DNA from: an uncultured Bacteroidales bacterium
GTDB lineage: Bacteria > Bacteroidota > Bacteroidia > Bacteroidales > Paludibacteraceae
Length of the DNA stretch: 56,289 nucleotides
Direction: 5' to 3'
NCBI GenBank assembly: GCA_902766045.1
Contig: CACXCA010000001.1
Location: 1-56,289 of the forward strand
Positions 35,820 to 56,289 of this stretch are shown piece by piece (the first letter of the stretch is position 1; every line of letters begins with the position of its first letter). The position numbers and the translations under genes were made by a program. The notes under the pieces were generated by a model. It had not been told where the DNA came from and did not search any database. It saw only the letters and a list, made by a program, of their open reading frames with translations.

Positions 35820-36995
35820 TCACAATAGCTTCAACCTATTCATCGCCTCTTCCAATGTCTTTCGTGGACAGGCAACATTAATGCGTTGAAAGCCTTCTCC
35901 TGTTCTTCCAAATATTTTCCCACTGTCAAGCCACAACTTAGATTTATGGATTATTCTATTGTCAAGTTCATCCACCGACAACCCTAATTTTCGGAAATCT
36001 AGCCAAACAAGGTAGGTGGCCTCATGGTTAATCATTTTAACGCCAGGAAGATTTGAATCCACAAACTGCTTAACATATTCAACGTTCTTCTTTATATAAT
36101 CAAATACAGCGTTAAACCATACATCACCATTCTTGTAAGCGGCAATGGTGCTGACATACCCCATGATGCTTACTTCGCTGTATCCTGAAACTTTATATTC
36201 ATGGATGAATTTCCGTCTGATGGTCGGATCCTTGATGATGATATTCGCCAACTGCAATCCTGCAAGATTAAACGTCTTAGAGGGTGAGGTAAAGGTGATG
36301 GTGATCTTTTCCAGTTCTGGACTGAGGCTTGCAAATATATGATGTTTCCCGACAAATGTGAAATCAGCATGTATCTCATCACTCAAAACACGTACTTTGT
36401 GTTTCAAACAAATCTCACCAAGCCTCAACAACTCTTCCCTACTCCATACTCTTGACACTGGATTATGCGGGTTACACAACAAAAACAGTTTCACATGATT
36501 ATCGATAATCTTCTGTTCAAAATCTTCAAAATCAATAAAATATCTATTCTCCTTTTCATTATATATCAATGTGTTATCAACCACTTTTCGCCCATTGCAT
36601 GTAACAACTTCTGAAAATGGATAATAAACCGGACTTTGAATTAAAACCGCATCTCCTTCTATCGTCAAAGCTCTGACGGCTGTAGCTATCGCGAATACAA
36701 CTCCGGGTGTCTTTATCAATTCTCTTTCGACAAATTCATAATTGTATTTTTTCTGGAAATACTCCCTCACTGTATTATTATAATCCGACAATGCCTCACT
36801 GTACCCAAAAATTCCATGATTGACAGCCTCAATCAAGGCTTCCTGCACATAGCTTGATGTCTTGAAATCCATATCGGCTATCCAAAGTGGCAAGACATCA
36901 GCTGGCATACCTAATCGCTCCGCAAAGTCATACTTTATAGACATTGTGTTGCGACGTTCAATGACGGTATCAAAGTCTAGGTTTTTTTCACTCAT
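35820..36995 (-). CDS. MalY/PatB-type PLP-dependent C-S lyase
   Basis: Protein of 391 aa, full length for the family. Fold-type I aminotransferase-like features: LPLWIADMDFKTSSYV near the start, PVYYPF, LCNPHNPVSRVWS, SDEIHADF and the PLP-lysine motif TSPSKTFNLAGLQ near residue 230. The C-terminal Arg motif is FQRINVACPR. PatB/MalY enzymes cleave C-S bonds in cystathionine and other cysteine S-conjugates, releasing a thiol, pyruvate and ammonia. It follows the second NifK-like gene by 22 bp and shares its terminator, so it is expressed with that reductase pair. Confidence 0.88.
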   Translation of the reverse strand: MSEKNLDFDTVIERRNTMSIKYDFAERLGMPADVLPLWIADMDFKTSSYVQEALIEAVNHGIFGYSEALSDYNNTVREYFQKKYNYEFVERELIKTPGVVFAIATAVRALTIEGDAVLIQSPVYYPFSEVVTCNGRKVVDNTLIYNEKENRYFIDFEDFEQKIIDNHVKLFLLCNPHNPVSRVWSREELLRLGEICLKHKVRVLSDEIHADFTFVGKHHIFASLSPELEKITITFTSPSKTFNLAGLQLANIIIKDPTIRRKFIHEYKVSGYSEVSIMGYVSTIAAYKNGDVWFNAVFDYIKKNVEYVKQFVDSNLPGVKMINHEATYLVWLDFRKLGLSVDELDNRIIHKSKLWLDSGKIFGRTGEGFQRINVACPRKTLEEAMNRLKLL

Positions 36996-37017
36996 ATATA
37001 ATACTTATTTGCATACA

Positions 37018-38316
37018 TCAATTGAAGCGTTGTACTGCCACCGTGTAAATATCTTCAATCAAACGGATACCACCCGTGTAGCCTACATAGAAATCATCGA
37101 AGACCACCTTGTCCAGCACAGGCCATGAGATGTTCAAGAAGTTACCTTTGAGTTTCTCTGTCAACTCCTTTTCGTAGTAACCACCCAACACTAATGGATA
37201 GCCATGGTAGTCATGACTTTTTATCTCCTCATGGATTTTGAAGCCATCGGTTTCGAAAGCCACATCTGCCTTTATGCCATAGTTGAGGTTTTGGAACTCT
37301 GCTGAGATTAGTTCCTGATACTCTTTAGGCGTATCATCCGTGATGAATTGCTTAGCAGGAACTAATCCTAAATCATTCACCAAGAACTTTGTGATTCCTA
37401 ATGCGTATTGAGCATCTGCCACCACCGAAAATTGCTTGTTGATCACACGGTTCTCCAAGAACAGATCTGCATAGCGGGAAATCAGGTAATAGAAATAATC
37501 CTCATGTTTCTTGATAACCTCTTCTACCTTTGTCTCATCTACATGGGCGAATTTACCCACCTCACGCAAGAACTTGCTTGTCTCGGTGGCACCAATCGGT
37601 AACACTGGGTAGTGTAGGTATGGAATACCCAATCGTTTCTCCATCGTCTTCATGTTCTTCAGACCCACCCATGGAGAAACCAGCAGATTTAACTCTGCTT
37701 CAGGTATCTTATTAATATTCTCAATGCCACGTTGGTAACCAAAGATCGTGTTAGGGGTCAAGCCGATCTCCCTCAAAAGGTTCTCCAACTCACGAATATT
37801 ACCGAGCCAGAAGAGGTCTTGGTAGGGCACATCCGCCCATATATTCACCAGGCCTTTCTGTTTCTTGTCCGACTTCTTGAGGTATTGGGTGACAATCGCC
37901 TCCACCACCTGCTCATGGCCTTTATAGTTATTGCCTTTGAAACCAGCCGTAGGAGCGAAAACCACAGGCTTGTCAGCATCTGCGAATTTAGACACCACCT
38001 CAGCGGCATCATCACCTACGATCTCAGGGATACAGCCTGTCAAGACCACATAGAGGTCTGCATCTATCACCTTCAGCGCATTGGCGATGGTCGTCTCCAG
38101 TTTCTTCACACCACCAAAGACCACATCCTTCTCGTTGATGGATGTACAAGGGAAGATCTGTGGGGAGAGATACCCCGAACTACCCGTAGTATCAGAAAGT
38201 TTTTGTGCACAGCCCGGACCTGAATGGAGTACGGGGCAAGCACGGTCTATCGCCTGAACGGTCTGCATTGCCGCCAAAGCACATTTATATCGTTGTTTGT
38301 CAAGTATCTTTGCCAT
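37018..38316 (-). CDS. NifK/NifN-like nitrogenase component 1 subunit, pair 2
   Basis: Protein of 432 aa, paired with the upstream D-like gene (TAATG overlap, one base). Three P-cluster-type cysteines are visible: Cys12 (RYKCALAAMQ), Cys36 (HSGPGCAQKL, cf. the GSQGC of NifK) and Cys95 (VLTGCIPEIVGDD, cf. the C-x-x-E-x-I-G-D-D of NifK). It lacks the N-terminal extension of true NifK and is short like NifN or methylthio-alkane-reductase subunits. It would form a heterotetramer with the D-like subunit, receiving electrons from NifH. Substrate unknown; the sulfur-gene surroundings suggest an organosulfur compound. Confidence 0.82.
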   Translation of the reverse strand: MAKILDKQRYKCALAAMQTVQAIDRACPVLHSGPGCAQKLSDTTGSSGYLSPQIFPCTSINEKDVVFGGVKKLETTIANALKVIDADLYVVLTGCIPEIVGDDAAEVVSKFADADKPVVFAPTAGFKGNNYKGHEQVVEAIVTQYLKKSDKKQKGLVNIWADVPYQDLFWLGNIRELENLLREIGLTPNTIFGYQRGIENINKIPEAELNLLVSPWVGLKNMKTMEKRLGIPYLHYPVLPIGATETSKFLREVGKFAHVDETKVEEVIKKHEDYFYYLISRYADLFLENRVINKQFSVVADAQYALGITKFLVNDLGLVPAKQFITDDTPKEYQELISAEFQNLNYGIKADVAFETDGFKIHEEIKSHDYHGYPLVLGGYYEKELTEKLKGNFLNISWPVLDKVVFDDFYVGYTGGIRLIEDIYTVAVQRFN

Positions 38317-55468: not shown

Positions 55469-55513
55469 TGTGATTATATTGTTTTATGCCACAAAAAAGC
55501 GGCGGGTGAATAA

Positions 55514-55879
55514 TTAAAATAAGTTTTGAATCTCGTTATAAGTATAAATTTTGTTTAAAGCTTCAATCAAGTCGCCCGGCAATGCCATCGCGATGATTCC
55601 TTTTTGCGTCAGTAGTGCACTGGCACCCGTTCCGATGCGTGAGGCTGTGATGTATTGACAATCAGAAAAGAGTTCCACTCTCTTCTCCATGTCCTCACGA
55701 GAATGTCCGCCGTTTTGACACACTGGAGGCGTTGTACGTTTCTCAACATAGATCCACTCTCCATCGAAGAACTGGTAGATGTAAAAATCTGTAGCTCTAC
55801 CGAAATGAGTATCGACCGTGTATCCATCCGTTGAAGCTGCCGCTACTCGAAAAGCATTGTATTTCTGTTTATCATCCAT
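55514..55879 (-). CDS. NifX-like cofactor-binding protein, first copy
   Basis: Protein of 121 aa from the ATG at 55879, which overlaps the nifB stop by eight bases; an upstream in-frame start at 55936 would overlap nifB by 65 nt and is less likely. The fold is marked by RVAAASTDGYTVDTHFGRAT, VELFSDCQYITASRIGTGA and GIIAMALPGDLIEAL, typical of the NifX/NifB C-terminal family. In many nitrogenase systems this domain is fused to NifB; here it is a separate gene directly behind nifB. Cofactor binding is inferred. Confidence 0.85.
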   Translation of the reverse strand: MDDKQKYNAFRVAAASTDGYTVDTHFGRATDFYIYQFFDGEWIYVEKRTTPPVCQNGGHSREDMEKRVELFSDCQYITASRIGTGASALLTQKGIIAMALPGDLIEALNKIYTYNEIQNLF

Positions 55880-56289
55880 GTGAAAAAGTCTCTGTGATTG
55901 CGAAATCTTCTGAATAAACTTCCTTGGAGAACTCACTTACGCCTGGCACTCCCACCGCATCCGCACGACAACGGTTGCAATGACGAAAGACATCAATGTA
56001 CTTCTCTGCACTCTTTCTTGCCTCTTCGATTTGGAAACAGAAAGGAGCTTTCTCGTCTTTGAGTTCATACGTCGGAATCAACGGAATGATGTTATAGATG
56101 GAGGCTCCCAACGAAGAGACTGTCTTCGCTATCGTCTCGATGTGACTTCCATTGATTCTTGGTACCAATACTGTATTAACCTTTACGGTGATACCACTTT
56201 CAGCCACTTTTCGAATACCATTCAATTGATTTTCGATCAATATCTTAGCACCTTCCAAGGCATCGTATTTCTTACCATGATAGATAATA
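55872..56289 (-). CDS. nifB: NifB, radical SAM cofactor synthase (C-terminal part; gene runs off the edge)
   Basis: Only about 139 C-terminal residues are in the window; the frame is open to the edge. EGAKILIENQLNGIRKVAES, VKVNTVLVPRINGSHIETIA and HCNRCRADAVGVPG (the Cys pair that ligates a cluster in NifB) identify it. NifB joins two 4Fe-4S clusters, a SAM-derived carbon and a sulfide into NifB-co, the common core of all nitrogenase-type cofactors. Its presence argues that the D/K-like proteins use a complex 8Fe-type cofactor, unlike protochlorophyllide or F430 reductases. It ends without a fused NifX domain. Confidence 0.93.
   Translation of the reverse strand, partial: IIYHGKKYDALEGAKILIENQLNGIRKVAESGITVKVNTVLVPRINGSHIETIAKTVSSLGASIYNIIPLIPTYELKDEKAPFCFQIEEARKSAEKYIDVFRHCNRCRADAVGVPGVSEFSKEVYSEDFAITETFSHG

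Follow-up and report, generated by a model that had tools for sequence, protein, structure and literature searches.

The window analyzed here is a 56,289-nucleotide stretch of DNA that represents one entire contig (CACXCA010000001.1) of an uncultured Bacteroidales bacterium from the family Paludibacteraceae (GenBank assembly GCA_902766045.1). At positions 35820 to 56289, its minus strand carries a cluster of 19 genes, from a truncated nifB through patB, which includes two pairs of genes for nitrogenase-like catalytic proteins, D1K1 and D2K2, interspersed with genes of sulfur metabolism. In the interpretation that we favor, if with reservations, this cluster would be an anaerobic sulfur-assimilation island encoding two ATP-driven nitrogenase-like C-S reductases that rely on one common NifH donor and one NifB cofactor maker, with D1K1 producing methanethiol and D2K2 producing sulfide or a small thiol. 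Both enzymes would probably cut sulfur from stable organic molecules instead of fixing N2, a role supported by the gene context and by the residues of the D subunits. An initial annotation of this DNA had proposed an ATP-driven organosulfur reductase similar to methylthio-alkane reductase (Mar), encoded together with its uptake and assimilation steps. This proposal fits the results described below, except for its one-enzyme picture, because only the first pair is of the Mar type, while the second belongs to a separate clade and has a changed pocket and a divergent CysK of its own.

Two types of D/K pairs

D1 (positions 52493 to 54055; like all genes of the cluster, on the minus strand) matches MarD of the MarBHDK system from Rhodospirillum rubrum (PDB entries 9FMG and 9D9U; PMC12552129) with a score of 605 bits, as opposed to at most 140 bits for any nitrogenase alpha chain, and K1 (51065 to 52414) scores 485 bits with MarK versus 64 bits with NifK. 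For D2 (38316 to 39782), the respective scores are 309 bits with MarD and 120 bits with the best NifD; K2 (37018 to 38316), whose coding region shares one base with that of D2, scores 364 bits with MarK and 87 bits with the best NifK. With the curated nifD, vnfD, and anfD models, all scores of D1 and D2 are below the cut-off. The three P-cluster cysteines are found in K1, K2, and all 91 aligned K-cluster proteins.

In a phylogeny of D subunits only (IQ-TREE, LG+C20 model, 44 rows), D1 falls within an 8-row MarD clade that includes R. rubrum MarD (support 100/100), whereas D2 belongs to a separate clade outside of it (100/100 for 11 rows and 99/98 for 12 rows). Nine NifD, NifE, and AnfD rows, five of which passed NCBIfam cut-offs while the names of the others rest on gene position, are set apart from both D1 and D2 (100/100). 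Of the families that the initial annotation had suggested for such a tree, it covers NifD, NifE, AnfD, and MarD. Because they fall in separate clades, D1 and D2 are not regarded as two copies of a single enzyme.

The residue comparisons lead to the same division. D1 is identical to MarD at 15 of the 15 positions compared, including Cys66, Cys91, Cys158, Cys270, the Arg428-His429 pair, Cys73, His194, Trp195, Phe199, and His375, and therefore resembles MarBHDK in its cluster ligands and pocket residues as well as in its clade. D2 retains the P-cluster ligands Cys66, Cys91, and Cys158, the cofactor ligand Cys270, Trp195, Phe199, His375, and Arg428-His429, a pair described as a possible Mar hallmark (PMC12552129, from which the Mar ligands, its cofactor, and its absence of N2 reduction are also taken). 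The D2 pocket differs from that of MarD in the replacement of Cys73 by Ser, His194 by Ile, and His376 by Tyr. All of the residues listed as retained are invariant in 80 of 80 aligned D2 copies, and in the same 80 copies the Cys73 column consistently contains Gly, Ser, Asp, or Ala and the His194 column Ile or Val. The column of the NifD residue His442 has Gly in D1 and Ala in D2 of the window, and Ala (77/80) or Thr (3/80) in the D2 copies, including the one from Lachnospiraceae bacterium 3-1, with no His within six columns, while the equivalents of NifD Gln191 and His195 are Trp and Phe, as in Mar. Neither D protein branches with NifD, NifE, or AnfD or carries His442, so that the outcome that the initial annotation had named as speaking against a dedicated sulfur reductase, a position inside true nitrogenases with all ligands of the iron-molybdenum cofactor (FeMo-co), did not occur. 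In NifE, AnfD, and one of the NifD rows, the Cys66 column of this alignment is displaced by one residue, and those cells were not used. D2 also has an additional cysteine, Cys56, located four residues past the first P-cluster ligand; it is present in 77 of the 80 copies and absent from R. rubrum MarD.

The AlphaFold model of D2 (mean pLDDT of 77, pTM of 0.79) has MarD (9FMG) as its top structural match, with TM scores of 0.83/0.86. Among the 50 matches listed, chains of nitrogenase, NifEN, and DPOR reach query TM scores of 0.63 to 0.70. The model is weak at residues 176 to 181 in the pocket region, and the pocket geometry was not read from it.

As judged from sequence, D1K1 is a Mar-type catalytic pair that would work with a NifH-type donor (see below). 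D2K2 is a variant of its own, expected to act in the manner of Mar, yet it falls outside the Mar clade and differs in the pocket.

A further D type encoded in Lachnospiraceae operons was considered as a candidate D1 and rejected: in the tree it forms a third type (L128 clade), which has no Arg-His pair. This third DK type (L128:7907-9355), which also lacks Trp195, is encoded close to D2K2 in some Lachnospiraceae and spirochaetes and could be related to NfaDK of Endomicrobium. Another arrangement is seen in locus L047 (contig C11 of genome G038; 7020 to 12986), where three tandem D2-like genes are followed by one K2; these are possibly interchangeable D subunits for different substrates with one common K.

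Reductase and cofactor proteins

The NifH encoded in the cluster (54620 to 55468; TIGR01287, 464 bits with a cut-off of 394) is the sole TIGR01287 match in the host genome and is presumed to be common to both D/K pairs. It is closer to Clostridium pasteurianum NifH (485 bits) than to the MarH chain 9fmg_D (296 bits), so that the reductase partner of D1K1 is not of the MarH type, and the Mar assignment of D1K1 is therefore made for the DK component only, as a variant with another donor. Exactly one NifH match was found in 13 of the 15 genomes examined; G038 has three and G159 has two, one of them below the cut-off. NifH proteins could be called in 61 D2 loci; they are 90 to 94% identical to NifH of the window, and both cluster-cysteine motifs are kept in all 61. 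PF00148 genes were surveyed in two plasmid records and ten genomes with D2. In four of these genomes (Lachnobacterium bovis, KHP2, Lachnospiraceae bacterium 3-1, and a Ruminococcus flavefaciens bin), D2 and K2 are the only such genes, while the others have 4 to 6. In those four genomes, the sole NifH can therefore serve only D2K2.

The host genome has four PF00148 genes, D1, K1, D2, and K2, all in the cluster; the PF00148 search detected no NifE or NifN in this genome, just as the initial annotation held for nifE and nifN. The cut nifB (55872 to 56289; TIGR01290, 108 bits) has its remainder on contig C22, which shares an exact 87-bp overlap with the window end; the nifB frame is open across this overlap. 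C22 carries a cysK upstream of nifB and, in the other direction, another cysK and a gene for an Rrf2-type regulator. A complete nifB in the relative G002 codes for a short NifB of 290 amino acids that scores 257 bits, below the cut-off of 344. The two NifX-like proteins are X1 (55514 to 55936; PF02579, 62.5 bits) and X2 (54122 to 54580; PF02579, 51 bits). X2 has a Cys/Gly-rich stretch and perhaps acts as a carrier of a cluster or cofactor precursor; each of its 51 D2-linked homologs contains between 5 and 10 Cys.

Association with sulfur assimilation genes

Profile searches found the genes named in the initial annotation correct in kind, strand, and coordinates, along with the alternation of nitrogenase-type genes (nifB, two nifX-like genes, nifH, and two D/K pairs) and sulfur genes that it described. 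The minus-strand order is nifB (cut), X1, nifH, X2, D1, K1, CBS-like, CGL-like, methyltransferase, putative outer membrane protein, MetQ, MetN, MetI, CysK, ATP-grasp, esterase, D2, K2, and PatB; the ATP-grasp and esterase genes had gone unmentioned.

The neighborhood of D2 was assessed in 80 loci, counting genes within 10 kb of D2; as the loci are often cut by contig ends, these counts are lower bounds. CysK is found in 76 of them, NifH in 61, NifB in 57, X1 in 56, X2 in 51, PatB in 33, LysR in 32, CGL in 30, another D type in 17, MetQ in 10, and MetY in 9. Of the D2 genes, 77 were called on the plus strand; the gene directly upstream of these codes for CysK in 69 cases and NifH in 5, with another gene or the contig edge in the remaining 3, and the CysK-D2 gap is shorter than 60 bp in 61 of the 69. 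The 80 loci, of at most ~21 kb each, contain 131 CysK-cluster genes, compared with a chance level of ~0.05 per 21 kb (85 PF00291 genes in ~34 Mb from 10 genomes). Among more divergent D2 rows, the CysK gene immediately precedes that for D2 in G184 and immediately follows that for K2 in G271.

The CysK linked to D2 in the window (41982 to 43001) is divergent, scoring 329 bits with the cysKM model, whose cut-off is 344. The GIGAGF-type loop is present in none of the 69 D2-adjacent CysK proteins as opposed to 47 of the 60 other CysK-cluster proteins of these loci. In a CysK tree, in which long branches were flagged, the D2-linked copies do not form one clade (5 label changes), and therefore only the motif difference is claimed. 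Given the adjoining CysK, sulfide would be the simplest product of D2K2, with a thiol possible in view of the altered loop. The cluster ends with PatB/MalY, a C-S lyase (35820 to 36995; TIGR04350, 446 bits with a cut-off of 340).

A search for siroheme sulfite reductase (PF01077) gave no match in the host genome, while 11 of 14 control genomes were positive, and no match in 20 of 22 further distinct genomes with D1 or D2 (23 handles, G004 and G157 being the same and counted once); G081 and G153 do have matches. A reductase that forms sulfite would therefore contribute little to assimilation in these organisms.

Next to D1K1 are the genes for a cystathionine beta-synthase (CBS)-like pyridoxal phosphate enzyme (49670 to 50647; TIGR01137, 345 bits, below the 510 cut-off), a cystathionine gamma-lyase (CGL)/gamma-synthase-like enzyme (48473 to 49630; PF01053, 514 bits; PRK07811, 503 with a cut-off of 513; PRK07671, 471 with a cut-off of 594), and an S-adenosylmethionine methyltransferase of the LCM family (47586 to 48434; PF04072, 71 bits). 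By analogy with the mcc genes of Bacillus, this set looks like a methionine-to-cysteine route. The MetQNI uptake genes of the initial annotation were recovered as a MetQ-like binding lipoprotein (45104 to 45979; PF03180, 212 bits), a MetN-like ATPase with a NIL domain (44006 to 45022; TIGR02314, 382 bits with a cut-off of 500; PF09383), and a MetI-like permease (43357 to 44019; PRK10782, 181 bits with a cut-off of 212). The porin that it placed beside them is a 445-amino-acid protein (46026 to 47363) with no Pfam match at an E value of 0.5; its position is kept in close relatives, and the name of putative outer membrane protein is a guess. The two accessory genes code for an ATP-grasp protein (40725 to 41915; PF02655, 24 bits) and an esterase-like protein (39966 to 40709; PF00756, 37 bits).

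In the proposed pathway, an [Fe8S9C]-type cluster made by NifB would be inserted into both enzymes without NifEN. D1K1, acting as a methylthio-alkane reductase, would free methanethiol from thioethers, and a MetY-like O-acetylhomoserine (OAH) sulfhydrylase, for which the host genome has candidate genes on contigs C73 and C24, would convert it to methionine, with the methyltransferase, CBS, and CGL passing methionine sulfur on to cysteine. D2K2, with its altered pocket, would serve as a second C-S reductase that frees sulfide or a small thiol; CysK, which most loci encode directly upstream of D2, would turn sulfide into cysteine, and PatB would aid onward transfer to homocysteine.

Conservation and phyletic distribution

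With D2 as the query and an E value threshold of 1e-30, matches were found in 24 of 150 genomes, including the host. Sequence identity is 96 to 100% in 14 relatives, one of these matches being partial, and ~44 to 49% in G037 and G038; G003, G019, G030, and G080 have D1 with no D2 match. The initial annotation had named a neighborhood not conserved in relatives as a counterargument, and this outcome did not occur among close relatives either. The order D1-K1-CBS-CGL-methyltransferase-porin-MetQNI-CysK-D2 is kept, with inserts in some cases, in all six close relatives that have D1 and a near-identical D2 on one contig (G002, G004, G006, G009, G034, and G081, whose K2 was found in L066); G004, G006, and G009 belong to the same genus as the host. 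More distant family members (G019, G030, G037, G038, and G051) show other layouts. Among the 13 relatives mapped, the ATP-grasp and esterase genes are found only in G002, and G006 has ThiF and DsrE-like genes at the cluster.

A scan of species genomes with the D2-clade alignment matched at least 594 stretches, at least 579 of them coding for a relative of the query, and the 80 best-scoring ones are 81 to 98% identical to D2. The resulting 81 D2 rows, including the window, come from Bacillota (58), Bacteroidota (12), and Spirochaetota (11); three loci give two rows each, and some loci give none. D2K2 thus occurs in gut members of three phyla and is not special to this Bacteroidales bacterium, a point on which the initial annotation needs correction. 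Among the source titles, 14 name a gut organ and 36 others bear RUG, RUI, or Lapin codes, which we take to denote rumen and rabbit bins. On the tree of the 81 D2 rows, 3 changes suffice to explain the phylum labels, which indicates few transfers of D2 between phyla and weakens the case for rampant ones. Other phyla also have the layout with two pairs: two plasmids, L055:9386-28382 (Treponema saccharophilum) and L056 (“Candidatus Chlorohelix”), encode two DK pairs, NifB or a radical SAM protein, NifX, NifH, and OAH sulfhydrylase.

The host genome is 3.35 Mb long, with a listed completeness of 100% and contamination of 0.4%. Elsewhere in the window, an AT-rich stretch (~12600 to 27000) encodes an FRG-domain protein, a trypsin-like protein, two DUF4143/AAA ATPases, an AAA/SMC-like protein, and a PLD-helicase protein; it looks like a defense or mobile region.

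Alternative functional assignments

Several observations weigh against the interpretation of the cluster as a sulfur-assimilation island with two C-S reductases. The 80 D2 loci are related by descent, so that the linkage counts do not represent independent events, and the mapping of the deeper rows G037, G038, and G381 showed no CysK next to D2. Since the D2-linked CysK has no usual loop, its nucleophile may be a thiol instead of sulfide; MetQNI may be only a methionine importer; and CBS, CGL, MetN, MetI, and CysK all score under the curated cut-offs. Some D2 copies have genes for Ssu/NMT1-type transporters nearby (the permease in 18 and the binding protein in 16 of the 80 loci), which could hint at sulfonates as substrates. 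NfaDK, which is reported to be diazotrophic, is outside the D tree. Finally, 15N2 was incorporated in all fecal samples tested by Igai et al. in 2016 (PMC4995403), whose candidates were Klebsiella and Clostridiales. They reported that some Clostridiales of this NifH clade, other than those mentioned below, retain the NifD histidine, and they found no grounds to rule out fixation. Neither of these last two points agrees with our results, as none of the 80 D2 copies analyzed here has this histidine.

D2K2 could also be a thioether reductase that, like D1K1, releases methanethiol, from which the divergent CysK would make S-alkyl cysteine to be processed by PatB and CGL. The retention in D2 of the Mar cluster ligands, Trp195, and His375, the altered loop of the linked CysK, and the presence of the C-S lyase PatB in 33 of the 80 loci are all consistent with this assignment. 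We consider it rather unlikely, as the MarD clade does not include D2, none of the 80 copies keeps His194 or Cys73, CysK proteins with the ordinary loop are encoded in the same loci (47 of the 60 non-adjacent ones), and a serine-acetyltransferase-like gene, scoring below Pfam cut-offs, is found in 7 of the 80.

The assignment of D2K2 as a divergent nitrogenase of group IV-A, similar to NfaDK of Endomicrobium proavitum, which would make the NifH-positive gut bacteria N2 fixers, appears distinctly unlikely. It draws on the NifH score above the nifH cut-off, the P-cluster cysteines and Cys275 equivalent of D2, the fecal 15N2 uptake, and the reported ability of E. proavitum, whose group IV component 1 likewise comes from a genome without NifEN, to fix N2 (PMC9147875, PMC11257099; compared by description). 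By the same description, NfaH differs from NifH of the window, which passes the nifH cut-off, in grouping with MarH (PMC9147875). Because of the results of Igai et al., we weighed this assignment slightly up and that of a sulfur reductase slightly down. Against it stand the position of D2 apart from NifD, NifE, and AnfD in the tree, the Ala or Thr in the His442 column of all 80 copies, the Trp and Phe in place of Gln191 and His195, shared with Mar, an enzyme that is reported not to reduce N2 (PMC12552129), the close linkage to cysteine synthesis, the absence of NifEN matches from the host genome and the D2 genomes surveyed, and the rumen N2 fixation reported as negligible (PMC6776011).

A sulfonate (isethionate) reductase that forms sulfite, with IsrBHDK of Rhodobacter capsulatus as the precedent (PMC11423573), would be in line with the Ssu/NMT1-type transporter genes close to some D2 copies, as Isr too is a nitrogenase-like enzyme for assimilatory sulfur release with an ssu-type transporter nearby. 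However, IsrD is reported to have no equivalents of the cofactor cysteine Cys275 and of the two P-cluster cysteines Cys62 and Cys154, and the radical-SAM protein IsrB to be unlike NifB (PMC11423573), whereas D2 has all three cysteines and its operon has a NifB gene; with no sulfite reductase match in the host and 20 of the 22 other genomes, this function is very improbable. The least probable is the role of D2K2 as a NifEN-like scaffold that matures the MarDK cofactor: the window has two DK pairs with one NifB and one NifH, and such a role for linked pairs was proposed by Dos Santos et al. (PMC3464626), but D2K2 is the only PF00148 pair in 4 of the 10 D2 genomes, leaving nothing to mature, and D1 occurs with no D2 match in four others. 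True nitrogenase, NifEN scaffold, and Isr were thus each considered for D2K2 and rejected on residues, tree, and gene content.

Implications for nifH in gut bacteria

A link of such genes to sulfur is in itself not new, since Dos Santos et al. noted in 2012 that nitrogenase-like genes with Cys275 are commonly found near OAH sulfhydrylase or cysteine synthase (PMC3464626). MarHDK-like group IV-A genes have been described near methyltransferase clusters (PMC10418091) and nifDK-like genes with cysteine synthase in a termite spirochete (PMC13067680). The same combination of NifH near group/cluster III with NifE/N-like DK, compared here by description, was reported for Prevotella bryantii (Inoue et al., 2015; PMC4356463) and for Lachnospira/Butyrivibrio (PMC4995403). 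The FeMo-co histidine of NifD was reported absent, as in D2, from Lachnospira multipara, Ruminococcaceae AE2021, and P. bryantii (PMC4995403), and Lachnospiraceae bacterium 3-1, which was included in that comparison, carries D2K2. These genes were left as being of unknown function in 2015 and as candidate N2 fixers in 2016; in the accessible text, neither the sulfur context nor the Mar hallmarks were raised. We found no description of a sulfur role for D2K2 in gut bacteria in the literature searched, which leaves out most subscription journals.

As a serious, still tentative possibility, D2K2 may be a novel reductase of the nitrogenase family that acts on stable organosulfur compounds (perhaps methanethiol, giving methane) to liberate inorganic sulfide and is the true partner of cluster III nifH in gut Lachnospiraceae, Prevotella, and Treponema, so that much of the supposed N2-fixing guild of the gut and rumen would be a sulfur-scavenging, hydrocarbon-releasing guild. 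nifH is the standard marker of N2 fixation, and D2K2 is the only pair that the single NifH could serve in 4 of the 10 D2 genomes surveyed. NifH of one of these, Lachnospiraceae bacterium 3-1, is reported to be >97% identical to a human gut nifH type used to argue for N2 fixation in the gut (PMC4995403), and that gut NifH is cited in a 2021 rumen paper (PMC8571420). In the rumen, a NifH screen assigned nitrogenase to 23% of 501 genomes, while nifH expression was low and fixation is described as negligible (PMC6776011). If the proposed role is true, sulfur scavenging would explain this abundance of nifH alongside negligible fixation, and D2K2 would be the second C-S reductase of a Mar-like kind, through which gut bacteria could possibly release methane or other hydrocarbons.

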